Shown piece by piece: positions 6,769-32,811 of a stretch of 33,526 nt of DNA; within the stretch, counting starts at the first letter, position 1; each line of letters starts with the position of its first letter. Source of the stretch: Microcaldota archaeon. GTDB lineage: Archaea; Micrarchaeota; Micrarchaeia; Micrarchaeales; Micrarchaeaceae. The stretch lies in assembly GCA_028866905.1 (NCBI GenBank), contig JAGWHI010000010.1:1-33526 (forward strand), written 5' to 3'. The notes under the pieces were generated by a model, which was not told the DNA's origin, made no database searches, and saw only the letters and a program-made list of their open reading frames with translations. Both the position numbers and the translations under genes were made by a program.

Positions 6769-7845
6769 TTGATAAAGAAGGTGTACGAGGGCTCGATAAA
6801 CTACATGCAGATCCTGGACGAGAACGGGGTAGTTGACAAGAGCCTGATGCCGAAGGAGATAACGGGCCCGCTGGTGATAGGCATGTACAGGAACATGTCG
6901 CTGACCAGGGCAGTTGACTCCAAGGTGCTCAGCCTGCAGAGGCAGGGGCGGTCTTACACGTACGGGCCGTGCATAGGAGAGGAGGCCACGCAGATAGGGA
7001 GCGCTATGGCCATGCGCAAGCAGGACATATTCGTCCCCAACTTCAGGCAGCACGGCGTATTCATAACGCGGGGGATGCCCCTCGACAGGTTCTTCCTCTA
7101 CTGGAAGGGCTACGAGGACGGCAACGTCATACCGAAGGGGGTCAACGGCTACCCGGTCATAATACCGGTCAGCTCGCAGCTGCCCCACGCCGCAGGGATC
7201 GCGTTCGCGCAGAGGTACATGAAGAGGGACTCCGCTGTCGTCACATACGTAGGCGACGGCGGTTCCTCGGAGGGTGACACCTACGAGGCTATGAACTTCG
7301 CAGGACTCTTCAAGGTCCCGTGCGTGTTCATAATCGAGAACAACCAGTGGGCGATATCCGTGCCCAGGAAGAACCAGACCGCTGCAGAGACGCTGGCGCA
7401 GAAGGGCGTAGCTGCCGGGATAAAGAACATACTCCAGGTCGACGGCAACGACGTATTCGCAGTTTACAAGGCCGTGTCCGACGCTATTGCAGCTTCGTCA
7501 GGCGGGCCAACGGTCATAGAGTGCGTGACCTACAGGATGAGCATGCACACCACTTCGGACGATCCCACGAAGTACAGGGAGCAGTCGGAGGTAGACATGT
7601 GGAAGCAGCGCGACCCGCTCGAGCGGCTGAGGAAGTACATGGCTGCCAACGGCCTGTGGAACGACAACCTGCAGAAGGAGATGGAGGAGCAGAACATCAA
7701 GGTCGTTGACGATGCCGTGGAGAAGGCGGAGGCGTTCAAGCTGGACCCCAGGAGCATGTACCAGAACGTATACAGCTTCATGCCGCAGACGCTGCAGGAG
7801 GAGATGGACGAGATGCTGGAGAGCAGCACCGCACATACCGAGTGA
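6769..7845 (+). CDS. pdhA: pyruvate/2-oxoacid dehydrogenase E1 component, alpha subunit
   Basis: Thiamine-diphosphate-dependent E1-alpha, which with E1-beta decarboxylates a 2-oxoacid and acylates the lipoyl group of E2. The ThDP/Mg motif begins at GDGGSSEGD (about residue 163) and ends at ENN about 28 residues later. The HTTSDDPTKYR segment is the conserved loop near the phosphorylation-loop position of E1-alpha. 358 aa is a normal length. The first in-frame start is TTG 6769, with GGTG five bases before it; the plus-strand TATA at 6722-6734 supports a start near here. Substrate is not certain, since archaeal enzymes of this type can prefer branched-chain 2-oxoacids. It is first of a three-gene operon. 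Confidence 0.92.
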   Translation: MIKKVYEGSINYMQILDENGVVDKSLMPKEITGPLVIGMYRNMSLTRAVDSKVLSLQRQGRSYTYGPCIGEEATQIGSAMAMRKQDIFVPNFRQHGVFITRGMPLDRFFLYWKGYEDGNVIPKGVNGYPVIIPVSSQLPHAAGIAFAQRYMKRDSAVVTYVGDGGSSEGDTYEAMNFAGLFKVPCVFIIENNQWAISVPRKNQTAAETLAQKGVAAGIKNILQVDGNDVFAVYKAVSDAIAASSGGPTVIECVTYRMSMHTTSDDPTKYREQSEVDMWKQRDPLERLRKYMAANGLWNDNLQKEMEEQNIKVVDDAVEKAEAFKLDPRSMYQNVYSFMPQTLQEEMDEMLESSTAHTE

Positions 7846-7849
7846 TATT

Positions 7850-8815
7850 ATGCTAATGAACATGGTTGGAGCCCTGAACAACGCACTTTCGCAGATACTG
7901 GCCGAAAATCCCAATGCGATAATCATGGGCGAGGACGTCGGCAAGGACGGCGGCGTATTCAGGGTCACCGACGGCCTGCAGGCGAAGTTCGGCCCGGGCC
8001 GGGTGATGGACACCCCGCTTGCGGAATCGATGATAATAGGAACTGCGATCGGAATGGCACTGTCCGGGATGCGCCCTATAGCGGAGGTGCAGTTCGCAGG
8101 CTTCATGTACATGGGCTACGACCAGATAGTCAACCATGCGGCGCGATACAGGAGCAGGACAAGGTCGGCGATGTCAGTCCCAATGATAGTCAGGACTCCG
8201 ATAAGCGGCGGCGTAAGGACATTGGAGCACCACTCCGACAGCCCTGAGACGCTGTACGCGCACATAGGCGGGCTGGTGGTACTCGAGCCGTCCACCCCGT
8301 ACGATGCGAAGGGGTTGCTGATCGCCGCTGCGCACGGCAACGACCCTGTGATATTCCTGGAGCCCACAAAGCTCTACAGGCTGTTCAAGCAGGACGTGCC
8401 CGAGGAGATGTACGAGGTCCCCATAGGCAAGGCCAACCTCGTGGCTCAGGGCGAGTCGCTCACCATAGTAACGCACGGGACAATGGTGCCGATGGTCAAG
8501 AGCGTAGTGGAGAAGAAAAAGGTGTCCGCGGACATAATAGACCTCAGGACCATAAGCCCGCTGGACGAGCAGGCCATACTGGACAGCGCCAAGAAGACCG
8601 GCAGGGTGGTCATAGTGCACGAGGCGCCGCTGAGCTTCGGCCCAGGCGCGGAGATAGCCGCGAGGATAGCCGAGAAGGCGATATTCGAGCTTCAGGCCCC
8701 CATAGTCAGGGTCGCATCGGGGAGCTTCCCGTACCCCTTCCCGGCGTATGAGACTTACTACATGCCTAACGAGCAGAGGATAGGCAAGGCAATCGACAAG
8801 GTTTTGCAGGCGTGA
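7850..8815 (+). CDS. pdhB: pyruvate/2-oxoacid dehydrogenase E1 component, beta subunit
   Basis: 321 residues from ATG 7850, four bases after the pdhA stop. The frame is open upstream to 7706, but those 48 codons lie in the pdhA gene and give an Arg-rich nonsense peptide. Family marks are MGEDVGKDGGVF near the N-terminus, DTPLAE, EVQFAGFM, the EHHSDSPE loop (family: HSQS-E), PSTPYDAKGLL, PVIFLEP and the C-terminal transketolase domain with DLRTISPLDE. It forms the alpha2beta2 E1 heterotetramer with PdhA. The stop overlaps the first candidate start of the E2 gene. Confidence 0.93.
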   Translation: MLMNMVGALNNALSQILAENPNAIIMGEDVGKDGGVFRVTDGLQAKFGPGRVMDTPLAESMIIGTAIGMALSGMRPIAEVQFAGFMYMGYDQIVNHAARYRSRTRSAMSVPMIVRTPISGGVRTLEHHSDSPETLYAHIGGLVVLEPSTPYDAKGLLIAAAHGNDPVIFLEPTKLYRLFKQDVPEEMYEVPIGKANLVAQGESLTIVTHGTMVPMVKSVVEKKKVSADIIDLRTISPLDEQAILDSAKKTGRVVIVHEAPLSFGPGAEIAARIAEKAIFELQAPIVRVASGSFPYPFPAYETYYMPNEQRIGKAIDKVLQA

Positions 8816-8817
8816 TT

Positions 8818-10062
8818 ATGAAGGACATAAAATTCGTTGACGTGGGCGAGGGGATAACCGAGGGGCACGTGCAGAAGTTCCTGGTAAAGGACGGCGAGCA
8901 GGTGAAGGAGGACCAGCCGGTCGTGCAGGTGGAGACCGACAAGGCTGTTGTCAACGTGCCCTCCCCGATCGGGGGCACGATAAGGTTCGTAGCGAAGGAG
9001 AACAGTGACGTCCATGTCGGCGACACGATTGCGATAATAGGCACACCTGCGGAGATATCCGCTTACCAGCCAGGCAAGGCTCCGGCACCCCAACAGGTGC
9101 AGGCTAAGGCAGCGCCTGCAGCAGCTACGGCTGCGCCTGCGCAGCAGGTTAAGCAGCCGGTGGGAAGGGAGGTGATTGCGACCCCGGCCGTCAGGAAGCT
9201 CGCCCGCGACCTTAATGTGGACATATCCAAGGTCATGGGCACAGGCCCGAACGGCAGGGTTGTGGAGAAGGACGTTCAGGATTTCGCAGCCGGTGCTACC
9301 CAGCCGGCAAAGCCCGCTGCGCCGAAGTTCGCTGAGCATCTTGAGGAAAGGCATGCGGAGCAGATAGAGCGGATACCAATGTCGCAGACCAGGAAGGCGA
9401 TAGCCAGGAACATGGAGGCGTCATGGACCATACCAAGGGCCGTCAGCATGGAGCTGGTGGATGCGACCGACCTTGTCGAAAGGGTGCAGAAGGAGAGGGA
9501 GCGGGTGATGAAGGAGCACAACGTAAAGCTGACATTCCTGCCTTTCATAATCAAGGCGACCATAGAGGCGCTTAGGGAGAACCCCAACTTCAACTCGAGC
9601 TACGACAGGGACAAACAGGAGATAATAAGGAAGAACTACTACAACATAGGCCTTGCGGCGGAGGCCCCGGATGGCCTAAAGGTGGCAGTGGTCAAGGACG
9701 CCGACAGGAAGAGCATAGTGGAGATAGCGAAGGAGATAGCAGAGCTTGGCGACAAGGTGAGGAACCAGACAATAACCCTGGAGGAGATGCGCGACAGCAC
9801 CTTCACCATAACAAACATCGGCAGCCTGGGCGGCGGCTACCTGTCCGTGCCCATGATAAACTATCCAGAGGTCGCGATACTCGGCGTGCACATGATAAAG
9901 GACATGCCGGTAGTCAAGGACGGGCAGGTTGCTGTTGGCAAGGTGCTCCCAATATCGATAAGCTTCGACCACAGGGTTGTGGATGGCGCCGAGGCTGTGC
10001 ACTTCACCAACGCAGTGAAGAAGTATCTGGAGGACCTGGACTACCTCGAGATCGGGGGCTGA
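8818..10062 (+). CDS. pdhC: dihydrolipoamide acyltransferase (E2 component)
   Basis: The E2 core transfers acyl groups from lipoyl-lysine to CoA. Domains in order are: one lipoyl domain (residues 1-80) with the lipoylated lysine in ETDKA at Lys42; an Ala/Pro-rich flexible linker (about 85-117); a peripheral subunit-binding domain (about 120-155, TPAVRKLARDL); a second linker; and the CAT domain (about 180-414) with catalytic SFDHRVVDG (His385, Asp389). A GTG at 8812 overlaps the pdhB stop, but ATG 8818 gives the standard MKDIKFVDVGEG start. Only one lipoyl domain is present. No lipoate-protein ligase gene is in the window. Confidence 0.94.
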   Translation: MKDIKFVDVGEGITEGHVQKFLVKDGEQVKEDQPVVQVETDKAVVNVPSPIGGTIRFVAKENSDVHVGDTIAIIGTPAEISAYQPGKAPAPQQVQAKAAPAAATAAPAQQVKQPVGREVIATPAVRKLARDLNVDISKVMGTGPNGRVVEKDVQDFAAGATQPAKPAAPKFAEHLEERHAEQIERIPMSQTRKAIARNMEASWTIPRAVSMELVDATDLVERVQKERERVMKEHNVKLTFLPFIIKATIEALRENPNFNSSYDRDKQEIIRKNYYNIGLAAEAPDGLKVAVVKDADRKSIVEIAKEIAELGDKVRNQTITLEEMRDSTFTITNIGSLGGGYLSVPMINYPEVAILGVHMIKDMPVVKDGQVAVGKVLPISISFDHRVVDGAEAVHFTNAVKKYLEDLDYLEIGG

Positions 10063-10066
10063 GCCG

Positions 10067-10702
10067 TCACCCGCCGATTTTCGATATCGCCTCCTCAAGC
10101 TTTGGGAATTCTTTTACGGTGTATCTGGATCTTGGATGCGCGCCCTTGCTTCCGGCGAAGCATATGAATTTCATCCCTGCGTTATACGCGGCCTTCTTGT
10201 CGACAGACAGGTCGCCCACGTAGACGCATTCGCTTGGCGGTATGCCAAGCCTCTTCGCTGCTACCAGCAGGGGGTCGGGATATGGCTTTGGTCTCCTGTA
10301 GTCCCCGAAGGACACCACGATGTCGAAATGCCTTGCGATGCTGCCGATGTCGTACATCATGCTCCGCCCCTCCATTATCCTGTTAGTCACTATCGCAAGC
10401 CTGTATTTCCCCTCCAACCTCCTCAGCGTTGCTGCGGTGCCCCTCACGCTCCTCACCATGCGTGAAGGATACTTCACCTTATCAGCCCAGTGGTCCAGGA
10501 TCCATCTTGCCCGCTCCTCCGATTTCTCCTTGGTCATGAGCCTTATCAGGTCGATAAGCGGCATCGCGTGCCCCTTCTCCAGGATCCTCTGGGTCGGCAC
10601 CTTGTAGCCGAACGCCCTGATCAACCGCTTGAAGAACAGGATGTTCGCATCATGGGAGTCAATGAGCACCCCGTCCACGTCGAATATTATGGCGCGTATC
10701 AT
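10067..10702 (-). CDS. HAD-superfamily hydrolase, phosphoglycolate-phosphatase-like
   Basis: All four HAD motifs are visible in 211 residues. Motif I is FDVDGV (nucleophile Asp8, acid Asp10). Motif II is IVTN near residue 107. Motif III is the lysine in RPKPYPDP. Motif IV is VGDLSVD. A helical cap lies between motifs I and II (subclass IA layout). Such enzymes dephosphorylate small phosphates such as 2-phosphoglycolate; the substrate here is unknown. The gene points against its neighbours: its stop is 4 bp from the E2 stop, and its start diverges from the E3 gene. It is an insertion that splits the dehydrogenase genes into two transcripts. Confidence 0.8.
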   Translation of the reverse strand: MIRAIIFDVDGVLIDSHDANILFFKRLIRAFGYKVPTQRILEKGHAMPLIDLIRLMTKEKSEERARWILDHWADKVKYPSRMVRSVRGTAATLRRLEGKYRLAIVTNRIMEGRSMMYDIGSIARHFDIVVSFGDYRRPKPYPDPLLVAAKRLGIPPSECVYVGDLSVDKKAAYNAGMKFICFAGSKGAHPRSRYTVKEFPKLEEAISKIGG

Positions 10703-10735
10703 TCCGGCACCGGCGAACTGATATGCAAACCCACA

Positions 10736-10745
10736 CTTTAATAAG
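10736..10745 (+). promoter_or_regulatory. TATA-like box for the E3 gene
   Basis: CTTTAATAAG lies about 30 nt before the ATG at 10772. It gives E3 its own promoter, separate from the pdhA-B-C transcript. Confidence 0.45.
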
Positions 10746-10771
10746 ATTGCCGTCTATTTAGGTTTGGTACT

Positions 10772-12142
10772 ATGGTGATGGGTTCCCTTCCCGAGCAGGT
10801 GGACATAGCGGTCATCGGCGGCGGCGTCGGTGGCTATGTGGCTGCGATCCGCGCAGCTCAGCTTGGGAAGAGCGTGGCGCTTGTGGAGAAGAACAAGCTC
10901 GGCGGACACTGCCTCAACTACGCCTGCATACCGTCCAAGACGCTGATACACATATCCGACCTCTACTACGACCTGCAGCACTCGCAGAAGTTCGGTATCA
11001 GCGCGGAGAAGGTCTCGCTCGATGCGAAGAAGATGCTGGACTGGCGTATGAAGGTGTCGCAGAGGCTGGAGGACGGCGTCGCCTTCCTTTGCAAGGCCAA
11101 CCAGATAGACGTCTTCAACGGGACAGCCACATTTGTCGGTTCCAACACGCTCCAGCTGACCGACGGCGTGTCGCTGGAGTACAAGAAGGCGATCATAGCG
11201 ACAGGGTCGGAACCAACGGCAATGAAGGGATTCGAGTTCGGCGGCAACATAATAGACTACAAGCAGGCGCTGATGCTGGACCATGTGCCTGCATCCATGG
11301 CTATAATCGGCGCAGGATACGTGGCCGTTGAGATAGGCACCCTGTACGCTAAGCTAGGCACTAAGGTCTCTATAATAGCAAGGTCAGACGTCCTCTCCAG
11401 GTTCGACAGGGACGCTGTGGAGCTGGTGAAGAAGCGCATGGCGGAGCTTGGCGCAAAGATATACCTTAACGCCACGCCTGCGTCGCACGACGCGGGCTCC
11501 CTGACACTTCAGTCTGGCGAGAGGATAGAGGCTGAGTACACAGTCGTTGCCGTTGGCCTGGCGCCATACACCGGTGAGCTCGGCCTGGAAAAGACTAACG
11601 TCAAGACGGACGCGAAGGGCTTCATAACCGTCGACGGCTCGCTGAAGACCACGGATCCGGACATCTATGCGGTTGGGGACGTCGTCGGCGAGCCAATGCT
11701 CGCGCACAAGGCGATACGCCAGGGCATCGTGGCTGCGGAGGCCGCTTCAGGGACAAACGCGGGATACGACAACCAGGTTGTCCCTGCGGTGATATTTTCC
11801 GACCCGGAGATAGCGATAGCCGGGAGCATAGAGGAAGCGGATGGGATAAAGGTAGCGAAGTTCCCGCTGACCGCGCTCGGAAGGGCGATTGCGCTGGACT
11901 CCACAAACGGCTTCGTCAAGGTGGCTTACGACAACGATAAGATGGTCAAGGGCGTGGAGATAGTCTGCGACACGGCGAGCTCTATGATAGCCGAGGCTGC
12001 GCTCGCGATAGAGATGGGCGCCACTCTCGAGGACATTGCGGACACTATACACCCGCACCCTACGTACAGCGAGGCCGTGCAGGAGGCAGCGGAGGTTGCG
12101 CTGGGGCGCGGCATACACTTCTTCAGCGGGAAGGGCAGGTAG
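10772..12142 (+). CDS. lpdA: dihydrolipoamide dehydrogenase (E3 component)
   Basis: FAD enzyme that reoxidises dihydrolipoyl-E2 with NAD+. The N-terminal FAD-binding GGGVGG (residues 16-21) and the redox disulfide Cys47/Cys52 in GGHCLNYACIPSK are clear. The family norm is GGTCLNVGC, so this site is a variant. A second Rossmann motif (IGAGYVAVEIG) binds NAD. AVGDVV closes the FAD domain. HPHPTYSE in the C-terminal domain carries the His-Glu pair of the partner subunit's active site. 456 aa is standard. An ATG at 10778 is an alternative start. The stop is one base from the alpha/beta hydrolase start, so the two are co-transcribed. Confidence 0.92.
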   Translation: MVMGSLPEQVDIAVIGGGVGGYVAAIRAAQLGKSVALVEKNKLGGHCLNYACIPSKTLIHISDLYYDLQHSQKFGISAEKVSLDAKKMLDWRMKVSQRLEDGVAFLCKANQIDVFNGTATFVGSNTLQLTDGVSLEYKKAIIATGSEPTAMKGFEFGGNIIDYKQALMLDHVPASMAIIGAGYVAVEIGTLYAKLGTKVSIIARSDVLSRFDRDAVELVKKRMAELGAKIYLNATPASHDAGSLTLQSGERIEAEYTVVAVGLAPYTGELGLEKTNVKTDAKGFITVDGSLKTTDPDIYAVGDVVGEPMLAHKAIRQGIVAAEAASGTNAGYDNQVVPAVIFSDPEIAIAGSIEEADGIKVAKFPLTALGRAIALDSTNGFVKVAYDNDKMVKGVEIVCDTASSMIAEAALAIEMGATLEDIADTIHPHPTYSEAVQEAAEVALGRGIHFFSGKGR

Positions 12143-25512: not shown

Positions 25513-25613
25513 TGGACTTGGCGGGAATTTCATGCCCCTGCGTTAGCAAGGCCATTTTGAACCCGCAACCTCTCACATGCCATGCGAGCGCGCTACCGTT
25601 ACGCCACAAGCCC
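25513..25613 (-). tRNA. tRNA-Ala (anticodon GGC) with T-loop intron
   Basis: The acceptor stem GGGCTTG/CAAGTCC has the alanine identity pair G3:U70. The D-arm is GCGT/GCGC with loop AACGGTA. The anticodon stem CTCGC/GTGAG encloses loop ATGGCAT, giving anticodon GGC (25579-25581). The T-stem is GCGGG/CCCGC and the discriminator is A; CCA is not encoded. The T-loop is split by a 29-nt intron (25527-25555); removing it leaves a 72-nt tRNA with the standard loop TTCAAAT. It starts 14 nt after the LSm stop with no clear promoter of its own between, so it may be cut from the LSm transcript. Confidence 0.92.
25527..25555 (-). other. 29-nt tRNA intron at position 59/60, bulge-helix-bulge
   Basis: The precursor folds as a complete archaeal splicing motif. 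The T-stem is the outer helix, UUCA pairs with UGAA as a 4-bp central helix, and there are 3-nt bulges AAA (5') and AUU (3') on opposite strands. An inner hairpin pairs UGGCCUUGC with GCAGGGGCA (one G-G mismatch, one U-G pair) around UAAC. Cutting after the second base of each bulge gives the canonical loop TTCAAAT. Confidence 0.88.
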
Positions 25614-25627
25614 ACTTAAGCATCAGG

Positions 25628-25849
25628 TCAGACAGGTGATACGTAGATGATGTTTCCGCCCCTCAGGAGAAGGGTGCCGACCTTGGCCTTGAGCTCGCCG
25701 TCCACAAGCTCCTCCGCCTCCTCGAGCGTTATGTTCATGTGCGCGTCGAAGGAGGTCATCTTCCCCCTTATGACTACGGAATTCTTCAGGCGTATGAGCA
25801 CCTTCTGCCCTATAGCCTTGTTCAGCAGGTCGAACGGCCTTTCGTTCAT
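25628..25849 (-). CDS. archaeal Sm-like (LSm) RNA-binding protein
   Basis: 73 residues, the usual length of archaeal SmAP/LSm proteins, which form six- or seven-membered rings on U-rich RNA. The Sm1 motif appears as GQKVLIRLKNSVVIRGKMTSFD followed by AHMNITLEEAEE (family: D-H-N-hydrophobic-L), and the Sm2 motif as LLLRGGNIIYVSPV (family: I-R-G-x-N-I). It has its own TATA box (25884-25894) in the short gap after rpoA2, and the tRNA-Ala gene follows 14 bp after its stop. Confidence 0.92.
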   Translation of the reverse strand: MNERPFDLLNKAIGQKVLIRLKNSVVIRGKMTSFDAHMNITLEEAEELVDGELKAKVGTLLLRGGNIIYVSPV

Positions 25850-25897: not shown

Positions 25898-29490
<3,593 letters not shown>

Positions 29491-29500
29491 AGTATCACTC

Positions 29501-31330
29501 TCACTCTGACTTGAGGCTTATCTTCGGCAGTATGTGCATCGACTTTATCTCGTCGAGCAGCAGCTTGAACGCGTAGCTTATCTCCACGCGCTCGAGCGTG
29601 TGCTCCCCGCACGACGGGCAGACCGGCGTGTTCTTTATGAAGTCGAAGTATCCTATGTCGCCGCAGCGCTTGCATATCCAGATGTCGGCCTTGTCGCTCT
29701 GGTCGAGCATTCGCTCCTTGAGCAGCAGGCTTGCGCCGTGGCCTACCAGCGCGTCTCGTTCCATTTCTCCGAACCTGAGGCCTCCCTTCCTCGGCTTTCC
29801 TTCGGTCGGCTGGTGCGTCAGTATCTGCACAGGACCCCTGCTCCTGACCTGCAGCTTCAGGCTAACCATGTGGTGCAGCCTGTTGTAGTATACTATTCCG
29901 GTGAATATCTGGGCCTTGAACGCCTTGCCCGTTCGCCCGTCGTAAAGGGTCTCGTTTCCGAACCTGTTGAACCCGTGCTGCTCAAGTATCGTGCCGTAGC
30001 TGTCGGCGCGGTCCTTGCCGTTGGCTGAGAATGCGGTTCCGTCTACCTTGATCCCGCTGAGCGCAGAGGACTTGGCGCCTATCATCTCCATCATGTCCCC
30101 GAGCGTCATACGTCCCGGGAGGCTGTGCGGGTTTAGCAGCAAATCCGGGACTATTCCAGAATTCGTGAACGGCATGTCCTCCTGGTTCACTATCAGCGCG
30201 ACCACTCCCTTCTGCCCGTGCCTGCTGGAGAACTTGTCGCCTACCTCGGGCACCTTTATGCCGCGCACGCGGACCTTTGTCATTCGCGTTGCACCGGTAG
30301 TCTCGCTCATCACAACGCTGTCTATCACGCCGTATTCTCCGGACCTCAGCATTACAGAGTTGTCGCGGTTCTTCTCCTCCCCGACTCCGAAGCTTGTCTG
30401 CTCCTCGAGGAACCTGGGCGGCGAGACCTTGCCTATGAGCACGTCGCCCTCCTTTACCTCGAACTCGGGCTCGATTATGCCGTCCTCGTTGAGCTTTGAG
30501 TATGCGTGCTCCCCCTTGTAGCCGTCAGTGGTAGCAGGCGGAATCTTGAAGTGGTCCTGCTGGCCTCCGGGGTACCTGCGCTCCTCGTCATGGTACGACC
30601 TGTAGAACACGCTCCTTCCAAGGCCCCTGTCGACAGCGGCCTTGTTGATCACTAGCGCGTCCTTCATGTTGTATCCGTAATAAGTGGTTACCGCGACAAC
30701 GAAGTTCTGCCCCGAGGGGTGCCTTCCCATGTTGAGCGTCCTGTACGCGGTGCTGTTGACTATCGGTATCTGCGGGTAGAACATCACGAACGCTCGCGCG
30801 TCGTACCTGTTGTTGAAGTTTATCGAGTAGAGCCCCTGGCTCTGCTTTACGAAGTTGGAAGCGAGCGCGTGCTTTCCTACGCTGTTGTATTCGGGGAAAA
30901 CCGACAGGCTCATCGTGAGCCCGAACATCGCTGCCGGGTCTATCTCCAGGTGCGTTGTGCTGTTCTCGATCCTGTCCTCTGTCAGCGCGACCCTGGCGTT
31001 CTCCTCCTCCTCGGCGTCCAGGTACTCGATCACGCCCTTCCTTAGCAGGTAGTTGAAGTCTATCTCCTTGCCCTTGACCTTGTCCTTGAGCTCCTGGGTG
31101 TACCTGCTCGCGCCGTTCTCGACCACTATGTACGGCCTTCGTGCGCGGCCCCTGTCGGCATTAACGTGCACCTCGTTGAGCTTCTTCAGGAAGCTGACGT
31201 TGACCTCTCCTGAAACTACGCCCGCGCGCCTGTTCTTCCTGATCTCCGATGCGAAAGCCGCGCCGTCGGCTACAGTCCCGATGAGCCTCCCGTCAAGGTA
31301 TACTGAGCATTTTACAGGTCTCTTTGCCAT
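29501..31330 (-). CDS. rpoB1: DNA-directed RNA polymerase subunit B'
   Basis: C-terminal half of the split second-largest subunit, 609 residues. Family marks include NVVVAVTTYYGYNMKDALVIN-like wall/hybrid-binding sequence, GDKFSSRHGQKGV, PFTNSGIVPDLLLNPHSLPGRMT, the GGLRFGEMERD segment, and a C-terminal zinc site CKRCGDIGYF...CPSCGEH. It pairs with B'' to make the equivalent of bacterial beta. The gap to the upstream rpoB2 is 8 bp and to the downstream rpoA1 10 bp, a tight operon. Confidence 0.96.
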   Translation of the reverse strand: MAKRPVKCSVYLDGRLIGTVADGAAFASEIRKNRRAGVVSGEVNVSFLKKLNEVHVNADRGRARRPYIVVENGASRYTQELKDKVKGKEIDFNYLLRKGVIEYLDAEEEENARVALTEDRIENSTTHLEIDPAAMFGLTMSLSVFPEYNSVGKHALASNFVKQSQGLYSINFNNRYDARAFVMFYPQIPIVNSTAYRTLNMGRHPSGQNFVVAVTTYYGYNMKDALVINKAAVDRGLGRSVFYRSYHDEERRYPGGQQDHFKIPPATTDGYKGEHAYSKLNEDGIIEPEFEVKEGDVLIGKVSPPRFLEEQTSFGVGEEKNRDNSVMLRSGEYGVIDSVVMSETTGATRMTKVRVRGIKVPEVGDKFSSRHGQKGVVALIVNQEDMPFTNSGIVPDLLLNPHSLPGRMTLGDMMEMIGAKSSALSGIKVDGTAFSANGKDRADSYGTILEQHGFNRFGNETLYDGRTGKAFKAQIFTGIVYYNRLHHMVSLKLQVRSRGPVQILTHQPTEGKPRKGGLRFGEMERDALVGHGASLLLKERMLDQSDKADIWICKRCGDIGYFDFIKNTPVCPSCGEHTLERVEISYAFKLLLDEIKSMHILPKISLKSE

Positions 31331-31338
31331 ACGATCAT

Positions 31339-32811
31339 CTATTCGCTCTCGAGAAGCTTGAGGCTCTTTATCTTCTCCTCAAGTCCCTTCTGGTCCGCGC
31401 CGACGGTTATCTTCGCCATGAGCGCGAGGTACTTTGTAAGCCCTACGTCTATTCCCTCCGGCGCCTCGCTCGGGCAGAGCTTGCCCACATAGGTTCCATG
31501 GACGTCCCTTGCCTTGTAGTGCGGGTGCTTCTTCGCAAGCGGCGACTTGACTCTCCTGAGCTGCGCGAGCGCGCTGGCGAAGTTTGTCCTGTCGAGCACC
31601 TGCGACACTCCGGTCTGGCCGGCAGGCCATGATCCCGTGCCCATGGAGTAAAGTATCTTCTCTGTAAGCGTGTCTGGGTTTATGTTCGTGCGCACGTTAA
31701 GCTTCCTTCCCCTGGCCGTTGTCCTCTCGACCTGGTACTTTATGTCGCGCACAAGGAACCTGAAGGCGTTGGTGAACAGCTCCTCCATGAGGTCTCCGGC
31801 GAGCTTTATCCTCTTGTTTGCGTAGTGGTCCTTGTCGTCGGACTTCACGTGCTTGTAGGCAACGAGCGATGCCCTCTCCACCATGCGGAGCAGGTACTTC
31901 GCCTTGTCCAGCCTCGCCTTCGGTACCGTGCCGAGGTGCGGCAGCACATAGGTGTCGAGCTGCATCTCAGCTCGCTTCTGCTGGTACGCCTTGGCCTGGT
32001 TGGGCGCCGACATGTGCCCCAGCTCCATTATCGCGTCGTCCTCCTTCATGCCCTTCGCCTTGCTGAGGTCAATGTTGAGGAGCATGTCGTTCTTCGTCTC
32101 CTTGCTCTCGAGATTGTCCAGTATCTGCGTGTCTGTCATCCCGAGCGCCCTGAGTATCATGACCAGGTCCACGCCCTTGGATATGGTGGGGAATAGTATG
32201 CTGTAAACGCCGTATGCGTCCCTTGTCACGCTGCACTTCGCCCTGAACGACAGGGTTGTGGAGAACACCTTGCTGGTGACGTCCCCGGACTTCTCCTTTG
32301 TGCAGATTATCCTGTTTGGCGCAAGGTCCTCTATGCCGACGAGCACTCGCTCTGTGCCTTTAATTATGAAATAGCCGCCCGGGTCGTCTGGATCCTCGCC
32401 CTCGGAGAGCAGCTGCTCCTTCCTCATGTTGCTCGTGTAGCAGAGCGCGCTCTTTACCATGACCGGCATCTCGCCTATGAAGGCCTCGCCTGCGTTGATC
32501 GTCTTCTCTATTCCGCTTATCATCGGCGTGTAAGTCAGGTAGATCGGCGCCGAGTATGTCAGGTTCCTTGTCAGCGCCTCGTTGGGTATTATCCTCTTTG
32601 ACGAGCTGTCCGATTCTATTATTACTGGGGGCTCTACCCTTATGGTCCCGAACTTTATCGCGAAGTCGGACACCTCGGGCTCGACAAGGCTCTGGCTGTC
32701 GACCACCCTCTGCATCCCGATGGCTATGAACCTGTTGTAGCTGTCTATCTGCTGCTGCACCATCGACGTCGACGTTAAATAGGATTCAAGCAGTTCGTGT
32801 GTCTCGCTCAT
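31339..32811 (-). CDS. rpoB2: DNA-directed RNA polymerase subunit B''
   Basis: N-terminal half of the second-largest subunit, 490 residues, which supplies the protrusion and lobe domains. Recognisable segments are LVEPEVSDFAIKFG near the N-terminus, LTYSAPIYLTYTP, GEMPVMVKSALCY, DPGGYFIIKGTERVLV, and near the end KSPLAKKHPHYKARDVHGTYVGKLCPSEAPEGIDVGLTK, where the DVHGTYVGKLCP-type fork sequence sits. The protein ends just after this, the usual break point of archaea with split B. It lies 43 bp after rpoH. Confidence 0.96.
   Translation of the reverse strand: MSETHELLESYLTSTSMVQQQIDSYNRFIAIGMQRVVDSQSLVEPEVSDFAIKFGTIRVEPPVIIESDSSSKRIIPNEALTRNLTYSAPIYLTYTPMISGIEKTINAGEAFIGEMPVMVKSALCYTSNMRKEQLLSEGEDPDDPGGYFIIKGTERVLVGIEDLAPNRIICTKEKSGDVTSKVFSTTLSFRAKCSVTRDAYGVYSILFPTISKGVDLVMILRALGMTDTQILDNLESKETKNDMLLNIDLSKAKGMKEDDAIMELGHMSAPNQAKAYQQKRAEMQLDTYVLPHLGTVPKARLDKAKYLLRMVERASLVAYKHVKSDDKDHYANKRIKLAGDLMEELFTNAFRFLVRDIKYQVERTTARGRKLNVRTNINPDTLTEKILYSMGTGSWPAGQTGVSQVLDRTNFASALAQLRRVKSPLAKKHPHYKARDVHGTYVGKLCPSEAPEGIDVGLTKYLALMAKITVGADQKGLEEKIKSLKLLESE

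Follow-up and report, generated by a model that had tools for sequence, protein, structure and literature searches.

A conserved intron at T-loop position 59/60 of tRNA-Ala(GGC) in Micrarchaeota

Introduction

Position 59/60 is listed among the non-canonical intron sites of archaeal tRNAs (PMC4090602), and both T-loop bulge-helix-bulge (BHB) sites and the broad specificity of the epsilon2 splicing endonuclease (EndA) have been reviewed (PMC6379350, PMC4033280). The intron described here, which lies in a 33,526-nt stretch of micrarchaeal DNA (the window), resembles the listed 59/60 introns in its position, BHB motif, small size and expected removal by EndA; theirs, however, are found in Crenarchaeota and Nanoarchaeota with an (alpha-beta)2 enzyme, whereas ours is found in a member of the Micrarchaeota with an epsilon2 enzyme. 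The tRNA introns of ARMAN-1 and ARMAN-2 (PMC4033280, PMC6379350; enzyme structure, PMC12397907) share with it the phylum, the EndA type and the use of non-canonical positions, but belong to other species than our host. As in canonical archaeal introns at 37/38, the central helix is formed by an exon strand and the intron's 3' part, and the cut is expected after the second base of each bulge, although in the canonical case that exon strand consists of anticodon-loop bases, and here it consists of T54-A57 of the T-loop. Since 59/60 introns and the broad specificity of epsilon2 enzymes are both published, we regard this intron as one of an already known type. The original prediction, made from the sequence of the window, had described non-canonical introns, those at 59/60 included, as best known from Thermoproteales; the site is indeed a known one, but the host belongs to the Micrarchaeota, where non-canonical introns had already been reported.

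Anatomy of the gene and its splice sites

The features of the gene are collected in Table 1. The precursor, read on the minus strand from 25613 to 25513, is GGGCUUG UG GCGU AACGGUA GCGC G CUCGC AUGGCAU GUGAG AGGUU GCGGG UUCAAA-[29 nt]-U CCCGC CAAGUCC A, in which the 29 nt (minus strand, 25555-25527) are ATGGCCTTGCTAACGCAGGGGCATGAAAT. Removal of these leaves a 72-nt RNA with all four stems paired, the anticodon GGC, the G3:U70 pair and the T-loop TTCAAAT, which ARAGORN calls as tRNA-Ala(GGC) of 72 nt plus CCA; no complete CCA is encoded, and U70-C72 are followed by ACCU. The original prediction of a tRNA-Ala(GGC) with a 29-nt intron at 59/60 was thus correct in all of its coordinates, in the G3:U70 pair and in the mature length. 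Its warning that a standard search could miss the gene was also borne out, in that ARAGORN called no tRNA on the unspliced window, and the Rfam tRNA model gave only a truncated match of 24.9 bits, below the cut-off of 29. In its archaeal mode, tRNAscan-SE 2.0 seeks non-canonical introns by default, using models whose training set came from other phyla (PMC8450103).

Table 1. Positions of the tRNA-Ala(GGC) gene, its BHB elements, the adjacent gene and other host tRNAs with T-loop inserts (window positions unless a contig is given)
Feature	Position	Strand	Observation
Exon 1, tRNA-Ala(GGC), ends A59	25556..25613	-	58 nt; spliced cloverleaf
Intron, T-loop site 59/60	25527..25555	-	29 nt; excision gives TTCAAAT as in intron-less orthologues
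Exon 2: U60, T-stem 3' strand, acceptor 3' strand, discriminator A73	25513..25526	-	14 nt
BHB central helix, exon strand T54 T55 C56 A57	25558..25561	-	standard pairs in 150/152 cells, 38 genes
BHB central helix, intron strand TGAA	25529..25532	-	A57-U to G57-C covariation in relatives
5' splice-site bulge, A58 A59 / A (intron 1)	25555..25557	-	splice/fold analysis
3' splice-site bulge, A T (intron 28-29) / U60	25526..25528	-	splice/fold analysis
Intron hairpin: 2 bp, G.G mismatch, 6 bp, loop TAAC	25533..25554	-	fold analysis
LSm (Sm-like) gene, 14 nt upstream of tRNA gene	25628..25849	-	Pfam PF01423, 73.7 bits
tRNA-Arg(TCG)	G000:C6:16019 (L041)	+	32-nt intron at 59/60, TTCA/TGGA; unspliced below Rfam cut-off
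tRNA-Ser(GGA)	G000:C22:13784 (L088)	+	17 nt at 59/60 (TTCA/TGAA) plus ~11-nt anticodon-loop intron
tRNA-Leu(CAA)	G000:C27:9787 (L063)	-	12-nt T-loop insert, relaxed motif GTTC/GAAC, unequal bulges

The precursor can form a BHB in which the TTCA/TGAA helix is flanked by 3-nt bulges (AAA and ATT), with the T-stem outside and the intron hairpin inside. The original prediction had called this motif perfect, which overstates it a little: the inner helix opens with two pairs (T-A, G-C) and is broken by a G.G mismatch before a further 6 bp. When the T-arm is folded by itself in ViennaRNA, the form of lowest energy (-23.4 kcal/mol) contains a 6x6 internal loop, and the BHB form (-21.6 kcal/mol) is 1.8 kcal/mol less stable; we do not count this minimum against the BHB, because its helix covaries in relatives. 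Among 200,000 shuffled introns, 0.3% gave the same 4-bp central and 2-bp inner helix in register, and given the conservation of the motif in relatives a chance origin is untenable. The splice register is ambiguous from the window sequence alone, as other cuts give TTCAATT, but the intron-less orthologues all carry TTCRAAT, which therefore fixes the register at 59/60 and agrees with the loop that the original prediction expected excision to restore. A self-splicing intron of group I or group II would have a large catalytic RNA core; this one is only 29 nt long, and no Rfam family reached its gathering threshold in the window, so we rejected that reading.

The insert among relatives

We compared the mature tRNA by BLAST with 85 genomes of the host's family (f1), where matches fell into two main classes, those of full length (1-72) and those ending at 58-65; identity to exon 1 reached 92% in relatives' orthologues. 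An insert of 13-48 nt lies at exactly 59/60 in 38 of the 67 tRNA-Ala(GGC) genes that could be parsed in the family; in the other 29 the loop, TTCAAAT or TTCGAAT, is uninterrupted, and the exons are near-identical between the two groups. Across the 38 interrupted genes, with four central pairs each, standard pairs occupy 150 of 152 cells, as opposed to 60, 81, 81 and 73 when the partner strand is slid by -2, -1, +1 and +2, although these cells are not independent, since sister genomes contribute several inserts that hardly differ. The fourth central pair is A.G in G006 and G.A in G004. Where A57 has become G57, the intron partner has usually turned to C: within the family, G57-C replaces A57-U in three genomes of genus g26 (G075, G076 and G082), while their relatives G079 and G080 retain A-U, and outside the family G57-C recurs in G216, G207 and G185, with G-U in G249. 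Such compensation, recurring at position 57, is strong evidence for selection on the helix. The 59/60 insert of tRNA-Ala(GGC) is also present in the sister families f2, f20 and f3, whose loci were picked for their shortened BLAST matches and so give presence rather than frequency; in both of the f3 genomes pair four is G-C and pair one is mismatched.

Taken together, the comparative evidence settles the status of the T-loop insert, and confirms it as a conserved, putative splicing substrate. It also bears on whether the insert might never be removed, leaving a mature tRNA with an enlarged, structured T-loop. The insert does fold stably by itself, but its length and sequence vary among the relatives around a constant splice-site helix, the intron-less orthologues show an intact TTCRAAT at the same locus, and the host encodes a fitting splicing endonuclease (see below), so that we find retention barely credible.

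Splicing enzymes of the host

The original prediction had proposed that the endonuclease might be of an unusual type, and inspection of its architecture supports this. The gene lies at L031:1196-2260 (minus strand) and encodes 354 aa when read from its first ATG. At 506.9 bits its product matches the ARMAN-2 (Ca. Micrarchaeum acidiphilum) epsilon2 EndA (4fz2/9w2k), with every other type scoring far lower, and its nearest public relatives by protein are from Micrarchaeota MAGs. In the alignment to residues 38-387 of 4fz2_A, 217 of 350 columns are identical, and the single chain has the three-unit (alphaN-alpha-betaC) organization, with a second, weak C-domain match within the same frame. Moreover, the residues with catalytic and RNA-contacting roles in the ARMAN-2 enzyme (PMC12397907) are all identical in the host, namely Y160 and K161 of the ARMAN-specific loop, K228, Y236, H251, S252, R275, K282 and W384, with the catalytic Y236/H251/K282 corresponding to host Y203/H218/K249 and Y160/K161 to Y127/K128. 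The ARMAN-2 epsilon2 EndA cleaves both BHB and BHL pre-tRNAs in vitro (PMC12397907), and it has been shown to be a homodimer with broad substrate specificity (PMC12397907, PMC6379350); by analogy, the host enzyme would be likewise. The original prediction had further held that such introns require an enzyme of broad specificity. This goes too far for the 29-nt intron itself, since its BHB is near-strict, but is a fair statement for relatives with inserts of 13-16 nt, which lack a proper inner helix and probably do need one. The host genome also contains an RtcB ligase (562 bits) and an archaeal RNase P RNA (89 bits). With an epsilon2 EndA and RtcB, the host thus has the enzymes needed to cut the precursor and join its exons.

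Copy number and other interrupted tRNAs

The original prediction had named a second intact tRNA-Ala(GGC) elsewhere as evidence that would count against it, and none was found in the host genome (31 contigs totalling 885,590 bases, with a completeness of about 90%) by Rfam, ARAGORN or BLAST of the mature sequence. The gene is apparently single-copy in the host, though a second copy could be missing because the genome is about 90% complete. Additional support comes from G075, which we take as a complete chromosome, and in which the sole BLAST match to the mature tRNA-Ala(GGC) is the intron-bearing gene; this argues that the interrupted gene must work. In G075 the match lies at C1:788602-788659 on the minus strand, and a 13-nt intron comes next. 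That the gene is instead a decayed pseudogene with a T-loop insertion, its work done by another copy, would fit with its being missed by standard finders and with the incompleteness of the host genome. We consider it extremely improbable, however, given the intact exons in which every stem is paired, the dozens of genomes that have inserts at the same position with a preserved helix, and the copy-number searches, which found no other tRNA-Ala(GGC) in the host and no other match in G075.

A T-loop-specific splice scan of the host genome, which was cleaner than a strict BHB scan (18,311 candidates spliced and passed to ARAGORN gave 12 matches, several of them spurious re-matches to known tRNAs or clashing calls), identified three more host tRNAs with T-loop inserts (Table 1). 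Several other host tRNAs carry anticodon-loop introns. By eye, the Arg(TCG), Leu(CAA) and Ser(GGA) T-loop inserts are unlike that of tRNA-Ala, which gives no sign of recent copying within the genome. As a separate observation, two weak tRNA matches, at G000:C8:47584-47654 (minus strand, L047; 22.8 bits) and G000:C25:34293-34345 (plus strand, L059; 16.9 bits), resemble tRNAs that have either several introns or extra sequence inserted around the D-arm.

The locus, and gain or loss of the intron

In 28 of the 29 relatives' loci for which flanks were available, LSm lies near tRNA-Ala(GGC), in intron-plus and intron-minus genomes alike, and rpoA'' usually lies beyond it; the order rpoA''-LSm-tRNA occurs with either intron state. 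In the window, the minus strand at 25898-32811 encodes RNA polymerase, its largest subunits divided among separate genes (apparently B'', B', A' and A''); LSm and the tRNA come next. Elsewhere in the window (6769-12142, plus strand) we noted an apparent pyruvate/2-oxoacid dehydrogenase run (E1 alpha, E1 beta, E2 and E3), judging from the translations.

Mapped onto an rpoA' tree of 62 genomes, intron state changes nine times, at least seven of the changes being forced by well-supported branches, on a tree that comes from a quick search, has some long branches and does not distinguish gain from loss. Sister pairs with opposite states are found (G016/G017 and G055/G057). Alignment of f1 introns with f2 introns gave a mean score of -2.66 versus -6.14 (sd 0.35) for shuffles, and part of this likeness is strand composition, because a reverse-complement control in which the helix is preserved scored -3.98. 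The strongest pair, from G016 (f1, L219) and G247 (f2, L319), scored 40, and the top of 200 shuffled sets was 33. As evidence that the Ala introns of different families share an ancestor, these values are no more than suggestive. The G016 intron resembles that of G247 though its sister G017 is without one, which could reflect either transfer or ancestral retention. As judged from these comparisons, this is one tRNA intron common to several families, with what appears to be repeated gain or loss.

Could the intron itself be selected rather than neutral? The molecule would be the same one, but the intron would be kept either because it splits the T-arm and 3' half of the gene, where integrases prefer to attach, or as a processing checkpoint. 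The presence of the intron across families would be in keeping with this, and tRNA interruptions that guard against integration have been proposed in the literature (PMC4390854). Its absence in many genera, and the seven to nine or more changes of state, show instead that it is dispensable, and we judge such a role clearly unlikely. One may speculate further that the 59/60 intron is old in this archaeal class, at one locus, with repeated precise loss and possibly moves between families (G016/G247), and that it is kept by selection, for example for delayed T-loop folding or a broken integration site; we offer this as a doubtful proposition at present.

Discussion

Combined, our observations suggest that this is almost certainly a functional, apparently single-copy, intron-containing tRNA-Ala(GGC), whose BHB would be cut by the epsilon2 EndA and whose exons would be joined by RtcB. 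The anatomy of the gene, the conservation and covariation of the helix, and the presence of EndA, RtcB and RNase P RNA are observed; expression, cleavage, ligation and their order we infer. In the proposed pathway, T54-A57 of the precursor would pair with the TGAA near the 3' end of the intron, stacking the BHB on the T-stem, and EndA would cut each 3-nt bulge between its second and third bases. RtcB would then seal exon 1, ending in A59, to exon 2, starting with U60, and with TTCAAAT restored the elbow with the D-loop could form, and CCA would be added next. Formation of the elbow and modification of the T-loop probably await splicing, because the BHB ties up T54-A57.

In the literature that we searched, leaving aside the original 2011 ARMAN paper, we found no description of the cross-family conservation of a 59/60 intron in tRNA-Ala(GGC), and we claim no priority. 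Compared across relatives, the locus shows cleanly that a T-loop intron of a micrarchaeal tRNA is a conserved, putative splicing substrate, with compensatory changes between nucleotide 57 and the intron. Its natural variants, which at one site range from a near-strict BHB to a minimal insert of 13 nt, form a panel for the substrate tolerance of epsilon2 EndA. Because finders that do not model T-loop introns miss such genes, these genomes can seem to lack part of their tRNA set. The question of intron gain versus loss also becomes testable here, at one orthologous site.
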